Shown here one piece after another: positions 3,718-47,968 of a stretch of DNA of 47,968 nt. The stretch is from a virus: IMG/VR virus record IMGVR_UViG_3300025703_000009, positions 1 through 47,968 of that record, one strand, 5' to 3'. The notes under the pieces were generated by a model. The model did no database searches. It worked only from the letters and a program-made list of their open reading frames with translations, and had not been told where the DNA came from. A program made the position numbers and the translations under genes. Each line of letters opens with the position of its first letter. Within the stretch, counting starts at the first letter, position 1.

Positions 3718-4765
3718 ATTCGTATTGCATACCCTGTACAAGGGCCAGGTTCAGATCAAAGAATTGGTTAATAGCCATACCTACAAGATTTTTGATCGAA
3801 AGAATGACCGGGACTGGGAGGTGTCGCCAAGCGCCACCGGTTTGACCGACAAGATGGAGAAAGGGGCGGGCCTCATGGTCTACGCTATGTCGGAAGCCAT
3901 GAAGTACATGGACCGGCAGTTCACCAATATGTCTATCAAACAGATGGCTGAAACGGATTTTACCTTCGGGCAGATGTTCAGGGATGCCCGGGCGGCACAC
4001 CTGAATAAGTCGGCGCTGGGCCGGCGGGTCGGTACGGCCTCCCACGAGTACATCGAAGAGCTGTTAAAAGCCCTGGTTCGTAGCCAGAAGCAGCATACCC
4101 AGTTCATCGTGCCACCATCGCCCACCGCGATTGATTTGAAAGCCGACCTTAAACAGTCCTGGCTCAATATCATTGACGCCTACAACTTCGATAAGATTGA
4201 GACGGTAGATAAATACCGGCAGATCGTGAATAAGGATATCGAGGTCAGGTCCTTACTCTGGCAAGAAGCGCTCATGCTACAGCGTACATGCGTCTCAGCC
4301 CGCGAATTTTTTATCGCGGCCGTAAAGGCCCAGGCTATCAAGGTCTGGGCGGTTGAGCAGATCGTACACTCCCGGAAATATTTTTTCTCAGGAAGATTCG
4401 ACTGCATCCTCGAGTTCGTCAAGCCCTTTGACTGGCGCGGCTATACGATCTCGAAAGGCATATATTTTACTGACTATAAAACCAGTAACCCTGGCCGGGA
4501 CTATCCGATGGGGATTTTCCCCAATCACTTGCCGCAGCTTGGCCTGTACGATATCGCGTATTGCGAAGAGTTCCCCGAGATTTCAGACCGGATTAGTGGC
4601 CACCTGATTTTGGGAAGCTCCAAGCAGGGATTAGGGTTTCACCCTTATGTCTCAACCAGGCGTGAACGTAACCGCAACTGGGGCAAAGCATTGGTACCGA
4701 TCAACGAGTATATGCATCAGGGTGATAAAGAGTTGAAAGGGCTCAATCTGTACGCAAGCACATAA
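3698..4765 (+). CDS. PD-(D/E)XK exonuclease, RecB/Cas4-like
   Basis: The GTG start follows GGAAAGGA. The 355-aa protein carries the ordered RecB-nuclease motifs: H116 in GTASHEYIEELL, Glu before VHSRKYFF, D235 in SGRFDCILEF, D259-Y-K261 in YFTDYKTS (the DxK catalytic pair), and Q280...Y284 in PQLGLYDIAY (the QxxxY motif). Such nucleases resect DNA ends in phage recombination. It lies two genes upstream of the SSB-like gene and in the same operon as the RecA-like gene, consistent with a resection, coating and strand-exchange set. No iron-sulphur Cys cluster is visible, so it is not a canonical Cas4. Confidence 0.85.
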   Translation: MPRPEAEFVLHTLYKGQVQIKELVNSHTYKIFDRKNDRDWEVSPSATGLTDKMEKGAGLMVYAMSEAMKYMDRQFTNMSIKQMAETDFTFGQMFRDARAAHLNKSALGRRVGTASHEYIEELLKALVRSQKQHTQFIVPPSPTAIDLKADLKQSWLNIIDAYNFDKIETVDKYRQIVNKDIEVRSLLWQEALMLQRTCVSAREFFIAAVKAQAIKVWAVEQIVHSRKYFFSGRFDCILEFVKPFDWRGYTISKGIYFTDYKTSNPGRDYPMGIFPNHLPQLGLYDIAYCEEFPEISDRISGHLILGSSKQGLGFHPYVSTRRERNRNWGKALVPINEYMHQGDKELKGLNLYAST

Positions 4766-5007
4766 TGGTAAAAAAAAGATATTCACTCCCAACGGATCCC
4801 GTTAAGCGTAAACAGGTACAGACCCGAATTAAAAAATACGGGCGCGATACCTACGCTAAAGCAGGATCCAAAGGTGGAGGCCCAAATTCGCCGGGAAGTT
4901 TTACTTCCGAACGGGCACGGTTGGCCGGTATAAAAAGCGGTCAGGTACGAGCAGCTAAGAAAGCAGAACAACTTAAAGAAGAGGAGAATAGTGATGCCGA
5001 ACATTGA
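4765..5007 (+). CDS. small basic protein, 80 aa
   Basis: TAATG overlap with the nuclease stop. The product is rich in Lys/Arg/Gly (GSKGGGPNSPGSFTSERARLAGIKSGQVRAAKKAEQ) and looks disordered; a nucleic-acid-binding accessory protein is plausible from charge and place. The last bases overlap the SSB-like gene start region, which supports operon structure. Confidence 0.65.
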   Translation: MVKKRYSLPTDPVKRKQVQTRIKKYGRDTYAKAGSKGGGPNSPGSFTSERARLAGIKSGQVRAAKKAEQLKEEENSDAEH

Positions 5008-5581
5008 TGTAATTTCGGAAGGTAAATATAAAATCGAGACGGTTGGCCCGGTTAAAACCGGCACGTCTAAAAAGACTGGCAAAGCCTACAAGACATTCGA
5101 CCTTCAATTCGAGGGTGATCCTCAGTGGTACAACTGTTTTTGGACACGTCCGGAAGACCCGAAAATCGGCCAAGAGCTGGATGGCAAGAAAGAATTTAAC
5201 AAGGACTTCGATAGCCACCAGTTCAACATGGGTTTTGCTGGCAACAAGGCTAACTGGAACCCGGCTGGCGCCAACGCGACCGTGTTTGCGGCCGCTGTGG
5301 CCGTTGTGAACGGTTTTCTGGGGCTGGACGGGGCGCATTTGGATAAGTGGCAAAAGGAGCGCAAGGAAGGCCAGACGGCTATCGCACACTACCTCGAAAC
5401 AGTGACCTCAGTCGCGGATGATATCAAGCAGCGGGTAGCCAAAATGGGCGGTGACGTTCAGACTGCGGCCAAGACCGCGGCAGCTCCACCTAAAGGCGGC
5501 GACCCAGGCCCGGTCAGCCCCGGCGAAGAAGACTGGCCCGATAAAGACGGCGAAGAAGAAGTCGATCTGGGGGGGATGTAA
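4994..5581 (+). CDS. ssb: single-stranded DNA-binding protein (OB-fold type)
   Basis: ATG 4994 lies 7 bases after GAGGAG; an in-frame GTG at 4991 is the alternative. Residues 1-110 are beta-rich with aromatics (KAYKTFDLQFEGDPQWYNCFW) as in OB folds. A Gly/Pro/Ala linker leads to a strongly acidic tail (EEDWPDKDGEEEVDLGG), a hallmark of SSB proteins that recruit partners through the C-terminus. The next to last residues differ from the bacterial DDDIPF tip. Neighbouring nuclease, helicase and RecA-like genes fit. Similarity to a specific phage SSB family was not recognised, so the call rests on architecture and context. Confidence 0.7.
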   Translation: MPNIDVISEGKYKIETVGPVKTGTSKKTGKAYKTFDLQFEGDPQWYNCFWTRPEDPKIGQELDGKKEFNKDFDSHQFNMGFAGNKANWNPAGANATVFAAAVAVVNGFLGLDGAHLDKWQKERKEGQTAIAHYLETVTSVADDIKQRVAKMGGDVQTAAKTAAAPPKGGDPGPVSPGEEDWPDKDGEEEVDLGGM

Positions 5582-5591
5582 AGGAGGACAG

Positions 5592-6281
5592 ATGAACCTA
5601 CAAACCCAATACAACCAAGCGGCAAGCGCCCTAAGCGTTCTGGGATATAGTAAAAACCTACCAAGCTTACCCCGCATTAAAAAAGCGTTCACGGCTGAAC
5701 AATTAGCTTACACCACCAAGCACAAGGCCACCCTCGTCATCACACCACCATCTAACTTATACGACCTAATCAAAGCTTTTGACAAGAAGCAGAAAACCGA
5801 GAGTTACATCTACAAATACCTCTTGGACCAGTACGACCTAAGCTCCGACAAATGGCGGGTAGACTTCGTACTGCCCGACCTGATGTTTACCAGTCAAACT
5901 TCCGATGAGCAAAAGAAGTCTTTGCGCAAACAACAAAAAAACTATAAGGTCGGTTTACAGAGTATTGACCCCCGAACTTACGTCATGCTGGACGCTATCC
6001 GTATAGAGAATGGCGAAAAGCTGTTAGATGGAACTACTTTTACCCGCTTCGCCCAACTACCAATGAAAACTTCGGGCGGCTACTCGTGGGTTCCGCGCGT
6101 GGACTCGGTCGGCGGTCGGGTCTACCTGGACAGGTCGCGCGGCCGCGCGTACTCGTACGAGGGTCTCCGTGCTTCGGTGGGGCTAGAACTTAATACTTCA
6201 ACTTCACCACTTCCTGATTCTTTTTCTTCTGAGCTTCCAGAGGAGCTGACTATTAACGGAAAGATGTATAGGGCTGTATGA
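5592..6281 (+). CDS. hypothetical protein, 229 aa
   Basis: AAGGAGG stands 8 bases before ATG 5592. The N-terminal two thirds is helical and basic (TEQLAYTTKHKATLV... YLLDQYDLSSDKWRVDFVLPDLMF); around residue 165 it becomes Gly/Tyr/Arg-rich (SGGYSWVPRVDSVGGRVYLDRSRGR). No recognised family. The next gene starts at an ATGA overlap. Local composition is less GC-rich than the flanks in the first third. Confidence 0.75.
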   Translation: MNLQTQYNQAASALSVLGYSKNLPSLPRIKKAFTAEQLAYTTKHKATLVITPPSNLYDLIKAFDKKQKTESYIYKYLLDQYDLSSDKWRVDFVLPDLMFTSQTSDEQKKSLRKQQKNYKVGLQSIDPRTYVMLDAIRIENGEKLLDGTTFTRFAQLPMKTSGGYSWVPRVDSVGGRVYLDRSRGRAYSYEGLRASVGLELNTSTSPLPDSFSSELPEELTINGKMYRAV

Positions 6282-6936: not shown

Positions 6937-7112
6937 TGTCTCAAATTCAATGGCCGCCATGGCAAAAATACTATGAGGAAATTGATCCACCAGAACCAAG
7001 AACAAGTAAATTTAAGAAAGGAATTATAGATTATGGGGAAGACATTATACGAACATGCTACAGCCGAGTTGAAACGGCTTGGGCTGCACTTAGAGGAGGA
7101 GAGCCCGGATAG
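6936..7112 (+). CDS. possible 58-aa protein overlapping the next gene
   Basis: A GTG overlapping the upstream TAG is preceded by AAGGAG at good spacing, opening a frame that runs 80 bases into the next gene. The product begins MSQIQWPPWQKYYEEIDPPEP and has a Tyr/Arg/Trp-rich end. The unusually AT-rich stretch 6940-7030 would otherwise be non-coding. The long overlap argues for caution. Confidence 0.45.
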   Translation: MSQIQWPPWQKYYEEIDPPEPRTSKFKKGIIDYGEDIIRTCYSRVETAWAALRGGEPG

Positions 7113-7665
7113 CCGGAAGATCCTCACTGATACCTTGGCGCTAGTTAAACGCTTCGAGAAACAGGCGCATAACGAATGGACCGGGAAGTGGGTGTTGGAG
7201 TTTTTCGAGACCCTCTGTAACTTCCTGCCGCTGTCACCGATTACCGATGACCCGGCGGAGTGGGAAGCCTACGAAGATACCCATAAGAACGTGACTACCG
7301 GGGAGGCCGAAGTTACTAAGCGCTGGCAAAACAAGCGCGCACCGTCGATTGTTTCGATGGATGGCGGCAAAACCTTTGTTGACCTCAAGACCAAGAAAGA
7401 AGGTAAGTCGGTCGATCATATCGAGCAGGAGAAAGAGTGGGCCGCGGACCGGGCCAAGCGTGACGCTGAGAGAAAAGCCAAGGCTAATCCTGGCCAAGTC
7501 CAGGCTCCGAACGTGCTGGCCCAGCCGCCAGTTGATACTTCGGTTCCGGCCGGTGAAGAAACTGATTCAAAACAAGTGTGGGCATCAGGTAAAAAAGTTG
7601 CTGCCGAATTTGCAAATTCTCCTGGTACAAAAAAAATTGAAAAGTCAGAAGAAGATAGTAAATAA
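7033..7665 (+). CDS. conserved phage protein of unknown function, 210 aa
   Basis: The segment LCNFLPLSPITDDPAEWE...RWQNKRAPSIVSMDGGKTFVDL resembles a widespread but uncharacterised phage family with PLTPLTGxxxEW and QNKR blocks (recognised by memory of the motif). The C-terminal 80 residues are Lys/Glu/Pro-rich and probably disordered. It sits directly before the RecA-like gene, 2 bases apart. Confidence 0.75.
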   Translation: MGKTLYEHATAELKRLGLHLEEESPDSRKILTDTLALVKRFEKQAHNEWTGKWVLEFFETLCNFLPLSPITDDPAEWEAYEDTHKNVTTGEAEVTKRWQNKRAPSIVSMDGGKTFVDLKTKKEGKSVDHIEQEKEWAADRAKRDAERKAKANPGQVQAPNVLAQPPVDTSVPAGEETDSKQVWASGKKVAAEFANSPGTKKIEKSEEDSK

Positions 7666-39337: not shown

Positions 39338-39823
39338 TTATTTGGTCTCCTTGCTTTTTTTAAGTGCTGTCTCGAACTCTTTGGGACCGATAGGCTTATC
39401 ATCCTTGGAGTAAGCCGTCTCAGTATCGCTGACGGTCTTCATATAGCGATGACCGTCCAGGGTGAAGTCGATGGCGACTTCGGATTTGCCAGGGCTGGCC
39501 GGCGGATCGAGCGGCGGCTTGGGGTTTTCCGTGGCCCGCTTCTCAGCAGCCAGGGCTTTATCCTCTTCGGGAACTTCGGCCTGGATGTCGGTGTTCTCGT
39601 TGCGGGCGATAGCCGCGTTGGCGTAGAACAACATCTGCTCGAGGCTCGTTAATGCCAGGCTTTGCTCCCGGCAGAAAGGCGTCATGTCAATCACGGCGTC
39701 CTTCATGGCCTTGCCGGCGGCGCGCATCCCTTCGATCTTCTTGATGGCATCCGCGGTGGGCGTGTGATTGGTGAAATTCCAATCCCAGAGTTGCTTCCGC
39801 TGGTCAGGTGACTGCGGACCCAC
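39338..39823 (-). CDS. acb2: Acb2-like cyclic-nucleotide sponge (anti-CBASS/Thoeris) with C-terminal extension
   Basis: Residues about 14-75 (FTNHTPTADAIKKIEGMRAAG ... PFCREQSLALTSLEQMLFYANAAIAR) match the helical Acb2 signature, with its N-terminal HxP, helix and final ExSLAxTxLExxxxWANAAIAR block. Acb2 hexamers bind cyclic di- and trinucleotides and so block CBASS and some Thoeris signalling (known for the family). The remaining 85 residues, a Pro/Glu linker plus a small beta-like module (EVAIDFTLDGHRYMKTV), are absent from the usual 90-110 aa proteins. Assignment is by motif memory. Confidence 0.75.
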   Translation of the reverse strand: MGPQSPDQRKQLWDWNFTNHTPTADAIKKIEGMRAAGKAMKDAVIDMTPFCREQSLALTSLEQMLFYANAAIARNENTDIQAEVPEEDKALAAEKRATENPKPPLDPPASPGKSEVAIDFTLDGHRYMKTVSDTETAYSKDDKPIGPKEFETALKKSKETK

Positions 39824-40029
39824 TATTCTTTGCCGCCTTTTTCAGCGGCATCCTCGGCTGCGGAGTCTTTGACGCCGGGTGGTTCTGGATCACCCTTTTT
39901 TTCAGCGGCATAAAGAGTCTTCATCTTCTTCATGGCCAGGGCGCGGGTGTCGAACTCGCCCATTTTCTTGCCGGTCTCCGTGTTGTAGACACAAAACTTG
40001 CCGGTCTCGTCTTTGATTTGATATGGCAT
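39823..40029 (-). CDS. conserved small protein, 68 aa
   Basis: MPYQIKDETGKFCVYNTETGKKMGEFDTRALAMKKMKTLYA is a motif shared by many short phage proteins (recalled; function unknown). The acidic C-terminus is likely disordered. GAAAGGATC precedes the start. It lies directly downstream of the tRNA-like RNA region on the same strand. Confidence 0.7.
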   Translation of the reverse strand: MPYQIKDETGKFCVYNTETGKKMGEFDTRALAMKKMKTLYAAEKKGDPEPPGVKDSAAEDAAEKGGKE

Positions 40030-40088
40030 AGGCCAGATCCTTTCGTTTAGTTTAATAACACTTACCTGAACCGCCCCTCACGGGCATA

Positions 40089-40196
40089 GGCGGCGATGGT
40101 GGGATTCGAACCCACGTCCACCAAGCTGTTTAAGTAACCGAATAATGCTTGGTGGTGAATCGGTGTCTGCCATAAGTCCGCTTTGGCTACATCGCC
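40089..40196 (-). ncRNA. tRNA/tmRNA-like RNA domain (non-canonical)
   Basis: Minus strand: acceptor GGCGATG (40196-40190) pairs with CATCGCC (40098-40092), and a canonical T-arm GTGGG-TTCGAAT-CCCAC precedes the latter. A D-arm-like GCCA/TGGC hairpin with GCGG loop is present. There is no normal anticodon arm. Instead a 9-bp stem CCACCAAGC/GCTTGGTGG closes a 20-base loop and is joined to the T-arm by only AC, as P2 meets the T-arm in tmRNA (GGAC + T-arm). The 3' end reads GCCT, not CCA. No tag frame is seen. A truncated tmRNA-like or viral tRNA-like element is proposed. Confidence 0.6.
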
Positions 40197-40505
40197 CCAA
40201 GAGCCTCTCGACCGGGGCCGGAGGTTAGGCGCCAACGCGCGGGGGTCGAACCCGGCAAACCCCGAAGGGAAATTGTGGCTCCTAATTGCCAGCGTGACGA
40301 TAATCGAATTGTTAAGGGACGTTCAGGGGAACTACCCCTAATCTAACAGCCCACCACCCCTCATGTCAAGCGGAATCTCCCCTGCAAATACAAAGCCCCG
40401 GGTTCAGCCAAGGTGCGAGACCAAGGCCGAACGATCCGGGGCGACCCGGCATAACCATAAACCGGGCAAGCGATTGAGAACGAAACCCTACCATCGGTTT
40501 GCCTC
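40197..40505 (-). ncRNA. structured RNA upstream of the tRNA-like domain
   Basis: Strong pairings on the minus strand: GGCAAACC (40503-40496) with GGTTTGCC (40261-40254), enclosing hairpins AAACC/GGTTT, GCCCGG/CCGGGT and a 48-base hairpin whose arms GCCCCGG/CCGGGGC and GTTCGGCC/GGCTGAAC (40442-40395) are nearly perfect. CCC-TTCG-GGG (about 40270) is a UUCG hairpin, followed by a T-arm-like GGGTTCGACCC. A TATACT hexamer (40517-40512) could start it. No coding potential. The class is unknown; large phage RNAs such as ROOL or GOLLD come to mind but were not tested. Confidence 0.55.
40341..40369 (-). promoter_or_regulatory. sigma70-like promoter inside the RNA region
   Basis: Minus-strand TTGACA (40369-40364), 17-base spacer, TTAGAT (40346-40341). 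The -35 is perfect, the -10 mediocre. Start about 40334 would cover the tRNA-like domain and the three small genes 40029-39134. Confidence 0.55.
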
Positions 40506-40591
40506 ACCCCTAGTATATCAAATCCAAATACCCCCACCCAAAACGGGGGTCAAAAGCGGATTTTTTTTCTGGGTATAAAAAGCGAGGAACA

Positions 40592-40661
40592 TTCAATCTG
40601 TTAGAGAGTCATAATGAACACGGCGAGCAGGGCAAAATAATAAGGCCATTTCAATCTGTTA
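40592..40661. repeat. TTCAATCTGTTA direct repeats
   Basis: TTCAATCTGTTA at 40592-40603 and 40650-40661 (58 bp apart); an inverted 10-bp copy AACAGATTGA lies at 40925-40934. Iteron-like or regulator-binding sites. Confidence 0.6.
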
Positions 40662-41070
40662 TTTATGTGGGGGAAATTTTAGTAAAATGCTAACCATTGT
40701 CGGTTCGGGATCATCTATTGTCAGGTGGTTGTAGGGGGGCAGATACCATATTTTTGGTATATATTAACTGGGGTTGTATGTCATCATTCTTTGTGGTTGT
40801 ATATAGTATTTTAGTGGGTATTTTTTAGTCATAGGGGGATGAGGGTTTGGTTGTTAGTGAATAACATGCCCGCAAATGCATCAATCGGGTGGTTGGGTTT
40901 GCAGATAGTCTTATTCATGAATCAAACAGATTGATATATCGCCAGCAAACAACAAAACAATCAATGAATAAAACATATTAAACCATAATCACATATGACC
41001 TTGTGTCAATAGCGTTGAGCATAAACCATAGTATGACATGCATATAACAGTGGTCGTATATGTGTACTGT

Positions 41071-41090: not shown

Positions 41091-41357
41091 CCACTAACGG
41101 ATACGCACCCCTGTACATTGATAACCCTTTGACAGGTGTTATTGTGCCGCGCGAAAAGTAAAAAGCCAAACAAAATTGGCGGACACATGCACAAACCCAT
41201 AGCCCCCTTACTCTAATACTTGCTTGTAATTGCCGTAATTCATACAAGTTGCTGATTACTAACTATAATGCTTTCGCCATAATGGAACGGCAATAATGTT
41301 TAATTACTAATATCGCAAGCTTGGTTGTTATGCGCTTTTCTTTTTGCTTCCGGGGCG

Positions 41358-41589
41358 AACGCAGCGAGTGAAAGCGCCGCGCGTAGTTTTAAGCTCAAAA
41401 CCCGGTTTATGCCGGTTTTACGTTGATTTGCGTGAATACTGAGCCACGTACAGGCGATTTGAGGCGATAAAAATAAAAAGATGGGTTGATGTACGTCTTT
41501 TATAAATGATGTGAACGCAGCAAGCAATTAGTTCAAGCTCCCTGCTAATAAAATAAAAAAAGAGTTGACAAGGAACGCAGCGAGTGAAA
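41358..41589 (+). repeat. GAACGCAGCGAG repeats
   Basis: GAACGCAGCGAGTGAAA at 41358-41374 and 41573-41589, with a partial copy GAACGCAGCAAG at 41513. The last copy fills the spacer of the promoter at 41565. Confidence 0.6.
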
Positions 41590-46777: not shown

Positions 46778-47203
46778 GTGAAAGTTTTACAGTACCGCAA
46801 GAAGTCAGTAGTAATTTCGGCGATGCAATATACCGGCGAAAACTGGGAAGAAGCGTTGGCCTGGGTTAAGAGGCAGGGCGGCAACGCTGCCGGGGCGCAT
46901 CGGCAGATAACCATCATTACCCTTGAGGGCAACATGAAAGCCGATCCGGGTGACTGGATAATCCAGGGTATTGCCGGCGAATTTTACCTGTGTAAGCCTG
47001 GTATCTTCGATGAGACCTACGAGCCCTATGACGGTAAGAAAACCTTGTCTAAGCCCTTGGCTCAATGGTTTCCTGACCTGAATAGTTTCGAAGTAGATCA
47101 GATCCGCCAGTTGATACGCGGAGCCGCGGAGCGCGATGCGCAGCTTGATGGCAAAACGCCGGTCCGCACTGTTACACTCACTATCGGATCCCTTCATGAT
47201 TAA
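46778..47203 (+). CDS. conserved phage protein, 141 aa
   Basis: GTG start after AAGGAGG. KKSVVISAMQYTGENWEEALAW...TLEGNMKADPGDWIIQGIAGEFYLCKPGIFDETYEPY is a common phage protein of unknown function (recalled pattern: RKKPVVIEAVQWTG...GDWIIRGVxGExYPCKPDIF). The last 8 bases overlap the deformylase start. Confidence 0.75.
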   Translation: MKVLQYRKKSVVISAMQYTGENWEEALAWVKRQGGNAAGAHRQITIITLEGNMKADPGDWIIQGIAGEFYLCKPGIFDETYEPYDGKKTLSKPLAQWFPDLNSFEVDQIRQLIRGAAERDAQLDGKTPVRTVTLTIGSLHD

Positions 47204-47636
47204 GGTCCTGAAATATCCCCACCGTAGGTTGGCGCGCAAGTCAACGCCGGTGAAGAGCATGGCAGAAGCCCGGCAAATCCTCAAAAAGCTTGATGACGCT
47301 ATCGCCGAGCAAGTCTGGGGCAAAGTCCTGGGCTTCGCCGCGCCGCAGATCGGTATCGACAAGCGCGTGTTCAGGGCTTCCGGTATCGGCTACATTAACC
47401 CCGAGATTGTTTGGATGTCGAAAGGCTGGAACTACTGCCATGAGGGCTGTTATTCGCTCGAGCAAGGGCGTTACGATTACGAAGTGGTCCGGCAGCACTC
47501 TTTGATTCTGAAATGGACCGATGAGGGGGGGGTAGACCACGAAGAACGATTTAACGGCAAGCGGGCTCAAATTATCCAGCATGAATACGATCACCTGGAA
47601 GGCAAGCTTGCTAACAGCGCAGAAGAGGCAAAATGA
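47196..47636 (+). CDS. def: peptide deformylase
   Basis: 146 aa. The three Def motifs are present: GFAAPQ (46-51, motif GxGLAAPQ), EGCYS (83-87, EGCLS; Cys85 is a metal ligand) and HEYDH (129-133, HExxH). The enzyme removes formyl groups from new proteins. Phage versions lack the C-terminal tail, as here. ATG 47196 overlaps the previous gene by 8 bases; an upstream in-frame start at 47136 lies within it. Confidence 0.88.
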   Translation: MIKVLKYPHRRLARKSTPVKSMAEARQILKKLDDAIAEQVWGKVLGFAAPQIGIDKRVFRASGIGYINPEIVWMSKGWNYCHEGCYSLEQGRYDYEVVRQHSLILKWTDEGGVDHEERFNGKRAQIIQHEYDHLEGKLANSAEEAK

Positions 47637-47846: not shown

Positions 47847-47968
47847 ATGAAGACCCAAATAATTGTTGAAAACGGTGTGGTGTCAATCGTGATTGATGAT
47901 GGCAAGCCCGTAGTAATCCAGCCGGCAATGCGGGCTGATAATAGTACCCCCCCCCCCCCCCCCCCCCC
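47847..47968 (+). CDS. 3'-truncated hypothetical protein
   Basis: AAGGAGAGAT precedes the ATG. 34 residues (MKTQIIVENGVVSIVIDDGK...) are readable before the frame runs into the terminal C run, which would encode polyproline and is probably not real sequence. Beta-rich start; family unknown. Confidence 0.5.
   Translation, partial: MKTQIIVENGVVSIVIDDGKPVVIQPAMRADNSTPPPPPP
47947..47968. repeat. terminal C22 homopolymer
   Basis: The contig ends in 22 Cs. This may be a sequencing/tailing artefact or a real C tract that stopped assembly; it makes the last codons unreliable. A G9 tract also occurs at 10331-10339. Confidence 0.9.

Follow-up and report, generated by a model that had tools for sequence, protein, structure and literature searches.

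A tRNA-like domain without an anticodon arm, probably closest to tRNA-Ser, at the head of a phage late operon

The bacterial Y RNA YrlA (RF02553) mimics tRNA without decoding and is possibly enclosed by a helix between its 5' and 3' ends. In eukaryotes, the mascRNA of MALAT1 is a tRNA-like element downstream of a longer RNA, whose 3' end is set there by RNase P. The minimal substrate of the bacterial enzyme consists of an acceptor stem, a T-arm and RCC. Among tRNAs, those for leucine and tyrosine are the others that carry a long variable arm like that of tRNA-Ser. The identity elements of bacterial tRNA-Ser are G1-C72, G2-C71 and G73, plus the long variable arm; G73 repels LeuRS and TyrRS, and serine identity does not depend on the anticodon (PMC9976931). 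Phage tRNAs are reported to evade tRNA-targeting defences (PMC10264068, PMC11555353).

We analysed a 48-kb IMG/VR virus record derived from metagenomic DNA, IMGVR_UViG_3300025703_000009, from position 1 to position 47,968; this stretch of 47,968 nt is called the window below. From the base pairing predicted for one segment of it (Table 1), we show that it keeps the parts of a class II tRNA, namely acceptor, D-arm, T-arm and G73-C-C, intact and paired, but has lost the anticodon arm. Our preferred reading is tentative, with a probability of about 0.45: the domain would be a non-decoding mimic derived from tRNA-Ser, placed in the leader of the late operon, excised by RNase P and acting as a decoy bound by SerRS or other tRNA-handling proteins.

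Table 1. Predicted RNA elements and adjoining genes in the window
Feature	Position	Strand	Remarks
tRNA-like domain, whole	40089..40196	-	Rfam RF00005 38 bits; fold z -3.55
Acceptor stem	40196-40190 / 40098-40092	-	7 bp, all Watson-Crick
Tail G73 C C	40091-40089	-	followed by U, not A
D-arm GCCA-AAGCGGACUUA-UGGC	40169..40187	-	4 bp; A14, GG18-19, A21; aligns with tRNA-Ser D-arms
T-arm GUGGG-UUCGAAU-CCCAC	40099..40115	-	5 bp, loop UUCGAAU
Stem CCACCAAGC/GCUUGGUGG	40118..40155	-	9 bp, 20-nt loop; replaces anticodon and variable arms; AC joins it to the T-arm
Candidate H-type pseudoknot helix ACCGA (40164-40160) / UCGGU (40141-40137)	40137..40164	-	interlocks with 9-bp stem
Upstream helix of the initial annotation, GGCAAACC (40503-40496) / GGUUUGCC (40261-40254)	40254..40503	-	8 bp, around hairpins
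Candidate sigma-70-like promoter TTGACA-18-TAGATT	40340..40369	-	extended -10 TG; stronger candidate
Candidate closing helix 40327-40313 / 40080-40065	40065..40327	-	15 bp, one bulged G; ~274-nt RNA
First late-operon open frame	39823..40029	-	68 aa, no family; GAAAGGA upstream
Acb2/Tad1 hairpin-domain protein gene	39338-39823	-	Pfam PF24729, E 2.6e-11

The 109 nt of the minus strand from 40197 to 40089 have a minimum free energy of -39.9 kcal/mol, compared with -27.9 kcal/mol in shuffled sequences (z -3.55), and none of 200 shuffles was as good. When the whole window was scanned with the Rfam tRNA model (RF00005), the domain scored 38 bits (E 1.5e-4) against a gathering cut-off of 29. Fold and score together confirm the initial annotation, made from the sequence alone, which had described a 3' domain with a 7-bp acceptor, a D-arm-like hairpin and a T-arm. 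A clean match to the ordinary tRNA model had been named there as a point against this description; the cut-off is indeed passed, but only by way of an insertion of 47 nt that stands for the anticodon and variable region, the acceptor, D-arm and T-arm being matched.

The middle of the domain is where it departs from a tRNA. The replacement of the anticodon arm by a 9-bp stem with a 20-base loop, linked to the T-arm by AC, had also been noted and is seen in the fold. A 5-bp anticodon stem with a 7-nt loop is absent: ARAGORN in default mode finds neither a tRNA nor a tmRNA, and the minimum free energy structure has the longer arm instead. The intron mode of ARAGORN yields only a forced Leu(UAA) call whose anticodon stem is broken (about 3/5 anticodon pairs), and a scan that deleted every possible segment returned many arbitrary tRNA calls and was uninformative; a tRNA with an intron in its anticodon loop was rejected. 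An arm as long as 9 bp turns up in 1.7% of the sequences obtained by shuffling the middle segment. ACCGA and UCGGU could pair across this arm, possibly as a pseudoknot helix that is a relic of the anticodon stem. The pseudoknot is unproven, because 8% of shuffles do as well. We also considered a phage attachment site; the acceptor 5' strand and the D-arm are present too, which does not fit a mere tRNA 3'-end core, and the frames inspected included no integrase.

To which tRNA is the domain related? With a covariance model of the domain we searched 100 genomes, all from the phylum that holds the terminase's only relative in the genome collection; these Elusimicrobiota serve solely as a tRNA comparison set and may not be the host's phylum. 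Among the best 30 matches fetched, 17 were tRNA-Ser and 8 tRNA-Pro, and none was Leu or Tyr. A further comparison, designed to avoid selection and length bias, took two of these genomes, both of the one phylum; their tRNAs were recovered with the tRNA model and only the shared arms were scored. tRNA-Ser(GCU) ranks first of 45 in one and first of 38 in the other; the serine tRNAs take ranks 1, 3, 4 and 36 and ranks 1, 2, 4 and 9 (Ser against the rest, one-sided p 0.03 and 0.002). The domain thus appears closest to tRNA-Ser by sequence, an assignment that is good but not certain because Ser did not come first in the 24-tRNA cluster of one MAG. The stretch 40196-40089 has all the serine marks: G1-C72, G2-C71, G73 and a long variable arm. 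The acceptor reads GGCGATG, compared with GGAGAGG in the tRNA-Ser genes, and all of its pairs still form; those genes mostly end in GCCA, the domain in GCCU. As a separate observation, an Elusimicrobia MAG contig packs 24 tRNA genes into about 2.3 kb, resembling the tRNA array of a phage or mobile element.

The late genes (terminase, portal, capsid) point leftwards from 40029 and early-type genes rightwards from 41889. The domain lies on the minus strand of the non-coding gap between these divergent sets, directly ahead of the first late open frame, from which it is separated by about 60 nt without a terminator. In the genome collection the terminase has a single match, from an Elusimicrobia MAG, with 29% identity. 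Just behind the RNA in the late operon, the Acb2/Tad1-like gene likely encodes an anti-CBASS or anti-Thoeris sponge. The phage has a second anti-defence gene, for the type I Thoeris inhibitor Tad3 (7033-7665, plus strand; Pfam PF25185, E 4.6e-18), which directly precedes a RecA gene. Elsewhere, a peptide deformylase is encoded at 47136-47636 on the plus strand (Pfam PF01327, E 1e-25). The divergent gap contains GAACGCAGCGAGTGAAA in two exact copies (41357-41373 and 41573-41589), and its first 12 bases recur there twice more in nearly the same form; these may be sites for a regulator or for packaging. The last 22 positions of the record (47947-47968) are all C, probably an assembly artefact.

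How far does the RNA extend beyond the domain? The initial annotation had proposed a large structured RNA reaching upstream, and this stands only in part. The 8-bp helix, a 48-nt hairpin and the T-arm-like GGGUUCGACCC are all present as sequence, but the stability of the upstream pieces does not exceed that of shuffles (40508-40334, z -0.8; 40310-40198, z +0.6), and helix and hairpins may reflect nothing beyond base composition. When the long RNA is folded freely (-179.0), the tRNA-like domain is broken; with the domain kept the value is -168.3. Inside the upstream part there is a second and better promoter, TTGACA at 40369 with TGTTAGATT at 40340, with a predicted RNA start near 40333 that may be the real one. 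In a short transcript from this start the predicted fold keeps the domain (acceptor pair probability 0.93) and the candidate closing helix (pair probability 0.96-0.999; duplex -23.8 kcal/mol). Its stability is matched by 0.1% of shuffles and by 3% of random window pairs, so that a shorter RNA closed by 15 bp is suggestive only. With a start near 40333 and a closing helix reaching 40065, both ends of the RNA as originally drawn may be wrong. The G+C content is 51-66% in the stretch 40090-40500 and 30-46% in the gap beside it. This favours a longer functional unit, whose 5' end may lie upstream of 40333.

The tRNA-like domain is known from one genome so far. Against phages and plasmids, blastn matched only the T-arms of ordinary tRNAs; exact and gapped pattern searches of IMG/VR gave no copy, only a tmRNA 3' fragment in the virus contig L134. 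The terminase has relatives in IMG/VR at 43-51% identity. Run over about 70 loci of these relatives, the covariance model found only ordinary tRNAs or nothing, and it did not detect the domain in 16 whole related phage contigs, in a search run without a positive control. The 68-aa neighbour was discarded as a cassette marker: it occurs in one relative, where the RNA is absent. As an observation in its own right, L134 carries at 5367-5402 (minus strand) the 3' end of a tmRNA gene without the rest of it, on a 25-kb contig; this fragment probably represents an ssrA attachment site of a phage.

Five relatives (L004-L008) have conserved RNA-like stretches of about 280 nt at the same place, with a similar promoter layout. 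In L004 (~5150-5440) and L005 (~5310-5610) the stretch precedes the terminase operon, is promoter-driven, contains covarying pairs and a block of 49 nt that is the same in the two phages, and ends in a terminator-like hairpin. L006 (~4040-4370), L007 and L008 (both ~4765-5100) share a second conserved stretch unrelated to the first kind. None of the five shares sequence with the window RNA or, in the loci tested, matches Rfam. From these few genomes we infer that non-coding RNAs may be exchanged for one another at this site.

What could such an RNA do? According to our preferred reading, host RNase P would cut the late transcript between 40197 and 40196, guided by the acceptor, T-arm and RCC; the tRNA 3' end would then be trimmed and its CCA completed. 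The product would be bound, perhaps even charged, by seryl-tRNA synthetase through the long variable arm, G1-C72, G2-C71 and G73, not the anticodon. Unable to read codons, the RNA would serve late in infection as a decoy or sink for the synthetase, for tRNA-modifying enzymes or for tRNA-attacking defence nucleases. Cutting would also release the late mRNA from its leader.

Several observations support a mimic. Perfect stems (7/7, 4/4 and 5/5 pairs) and a z of -3.55 are not expected of a decaying gene. The acceptor differs in sequence from those of the tRNA-Ser genes compared yet is fully paired, and the domain lies in the non-coding gap ahead of the late operon, next to the Acb2/Tad1-like gene. 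The investment in counter-defence implied by that gene and Tad3 lends plausibility to a decoy aimed at tRNA-attacking defences and proves nothing. Counting against a mimic are its occurrence in a single genome, with no sign of selection beyond one sequence; the GCCU tail; A15 of the D-loop, which faces C48 in place of the usual Levitt pair; the long-transcript fold that breaks the domain; and the 9-bp arm with its 20-nt loop, unlike a real Ser variable arm. A further reading, which we think unlikely, is that SerRS still recognises and charges the RNA, and that, in the late phase, abundant seryl-RNA or empty decoy sequesters SerRS, EF-Tu or a tRNA-attacking defence nuclease. If so, this would be a tRNA derivative that lacks an anticodon and serves in counter-defence or translation control.

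The main rivals of the mimic are both live. One, rather improbable in our view, takes the domain for a processing signal only: RNase P and tRNA 3' nucleases would split the leader from the late mRNA, and the excised piece would have no role. The domain holds the acceptor, T-arm and RCC that the cleavage needs, at a short distance from the first late frame and with no terminator between them. An acceptor hairpin would suffice for this purpose, however, and the retained D-arm, G73, G2-C71 and 9-bp variable-like arm are left unexplained. The other rival, which we hold to be doubtful, is a phage-borne tRNA-Ser gene in decay, its anticodon and variable arms scrambled by insertions. The single occurrence, the similarity to tRNA-Ser and the possible anticodon-stem relic would suit such a history, but pairing is perfect in all three stems that remain, and a new arm of 9 bp has arisen.

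The initial annotation had offered three options: a tag-less mini-tmRNA, a tRNA mimic or the end of a ROOL- or GOLLD-like giant RNA. The tRNA mimic fits best. For a mini-tmRNA the 9-bp arm would be P2, and the RNA, charged with alanine, would rescue ribosomes with SmpB. GGACG and the T-arm do resemble a tmRNA 3' end, that of L134 also having TTGGTGGACG-GGGTTCGA, and the tmRNA model (RF00023) detects the domain. It does so, however, at 28.6 bits with its middle deleted, below the gathering cut-off of 47. The 5' half forms a paired, tRNA-type D-arm, not the tmRNA D-loop; pair 3-70 is C-G, and the G3-U70 of alanine identity is absent; tRNA-Ser is closer. Between the P2 strands there is no tag-coding, mRNA-like part, only the 20-nt loop, and the ARAGORN tmRNA search was empty. 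A permuted tmRNA was rejected by the Rfam search. A mini-tmRNA is therefore disfavoured and very improbable. A giant phage RNA of the GOLLD or ROOL type that ends in the domain, or a Y RNA of the YrlA type that has it as its tRNA-like module, would agree with the GC-rich non-coding stretch, the possible closing helix and the phage location, but is highly unlikely given the lack of any Rfam match (GOLLD and ROOL up to E 5 in 40040-41000, YrlA at E 10), upstream parts no stabler than shuffles and no Ro (Ro60/TROVE) protein among 30 phage proteins from the larger frames scanned with Pfam.

How, then, does the domain compare with known systems? With tmRNA it shares tRNA-like ends, a long stem where a tRNA has its anticodon arm and GGACG beside the T-arm; it differs in its sub-cut-off score, its normal D-arm and the lack of both an mRNA-like part and G3-U70. 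If made and processed, the RNA would be a phage tRNA mimic without an anticodon, distinct from tmRNA. YrlA is alike in mimicking tRNA without decoding and possibly in having an enclosing 5'-3' helix, but the domain does not match its model, has a free-standing acceptor with G73-C-C, and lacks a Ro partner among the scanned proteins. By analogy with the mascRNA of MALAT1, a tRNA-like piece 3' of a longer RNA could define an RNA end through RNase P, although mascRNA is eukaryotic and unrelated in sequence. The closest likeness is to bacterial tRNA-Ser (class II), in the sequence and pairing of acceptor, D-arm and T-arm, in the G73-CC tail, in G1-C72 and G2-C71, and in a long arm ahead of the T-arm. 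Unlike tRNA-Ser, the domain has no anticodon arm, has only one arm of 9 bp with a loop of 20 nt, carries U for the final A of CCA and belongs to the leader of an operon. If the RNA is made and processed, nature would here provide a test of anticodon-independent serine identity. The defence-evading phage tRNAs are likewise encoded by phage-borne genes for tRNA-like molecules, with a possible counterpart here in an anti-defence role; those tRNAs decode, whereas the domain cannot (PMC10264068, PMC11555353). If our preferred reading is true, the roles of phage tRNAs would widen from decoding to decoy.
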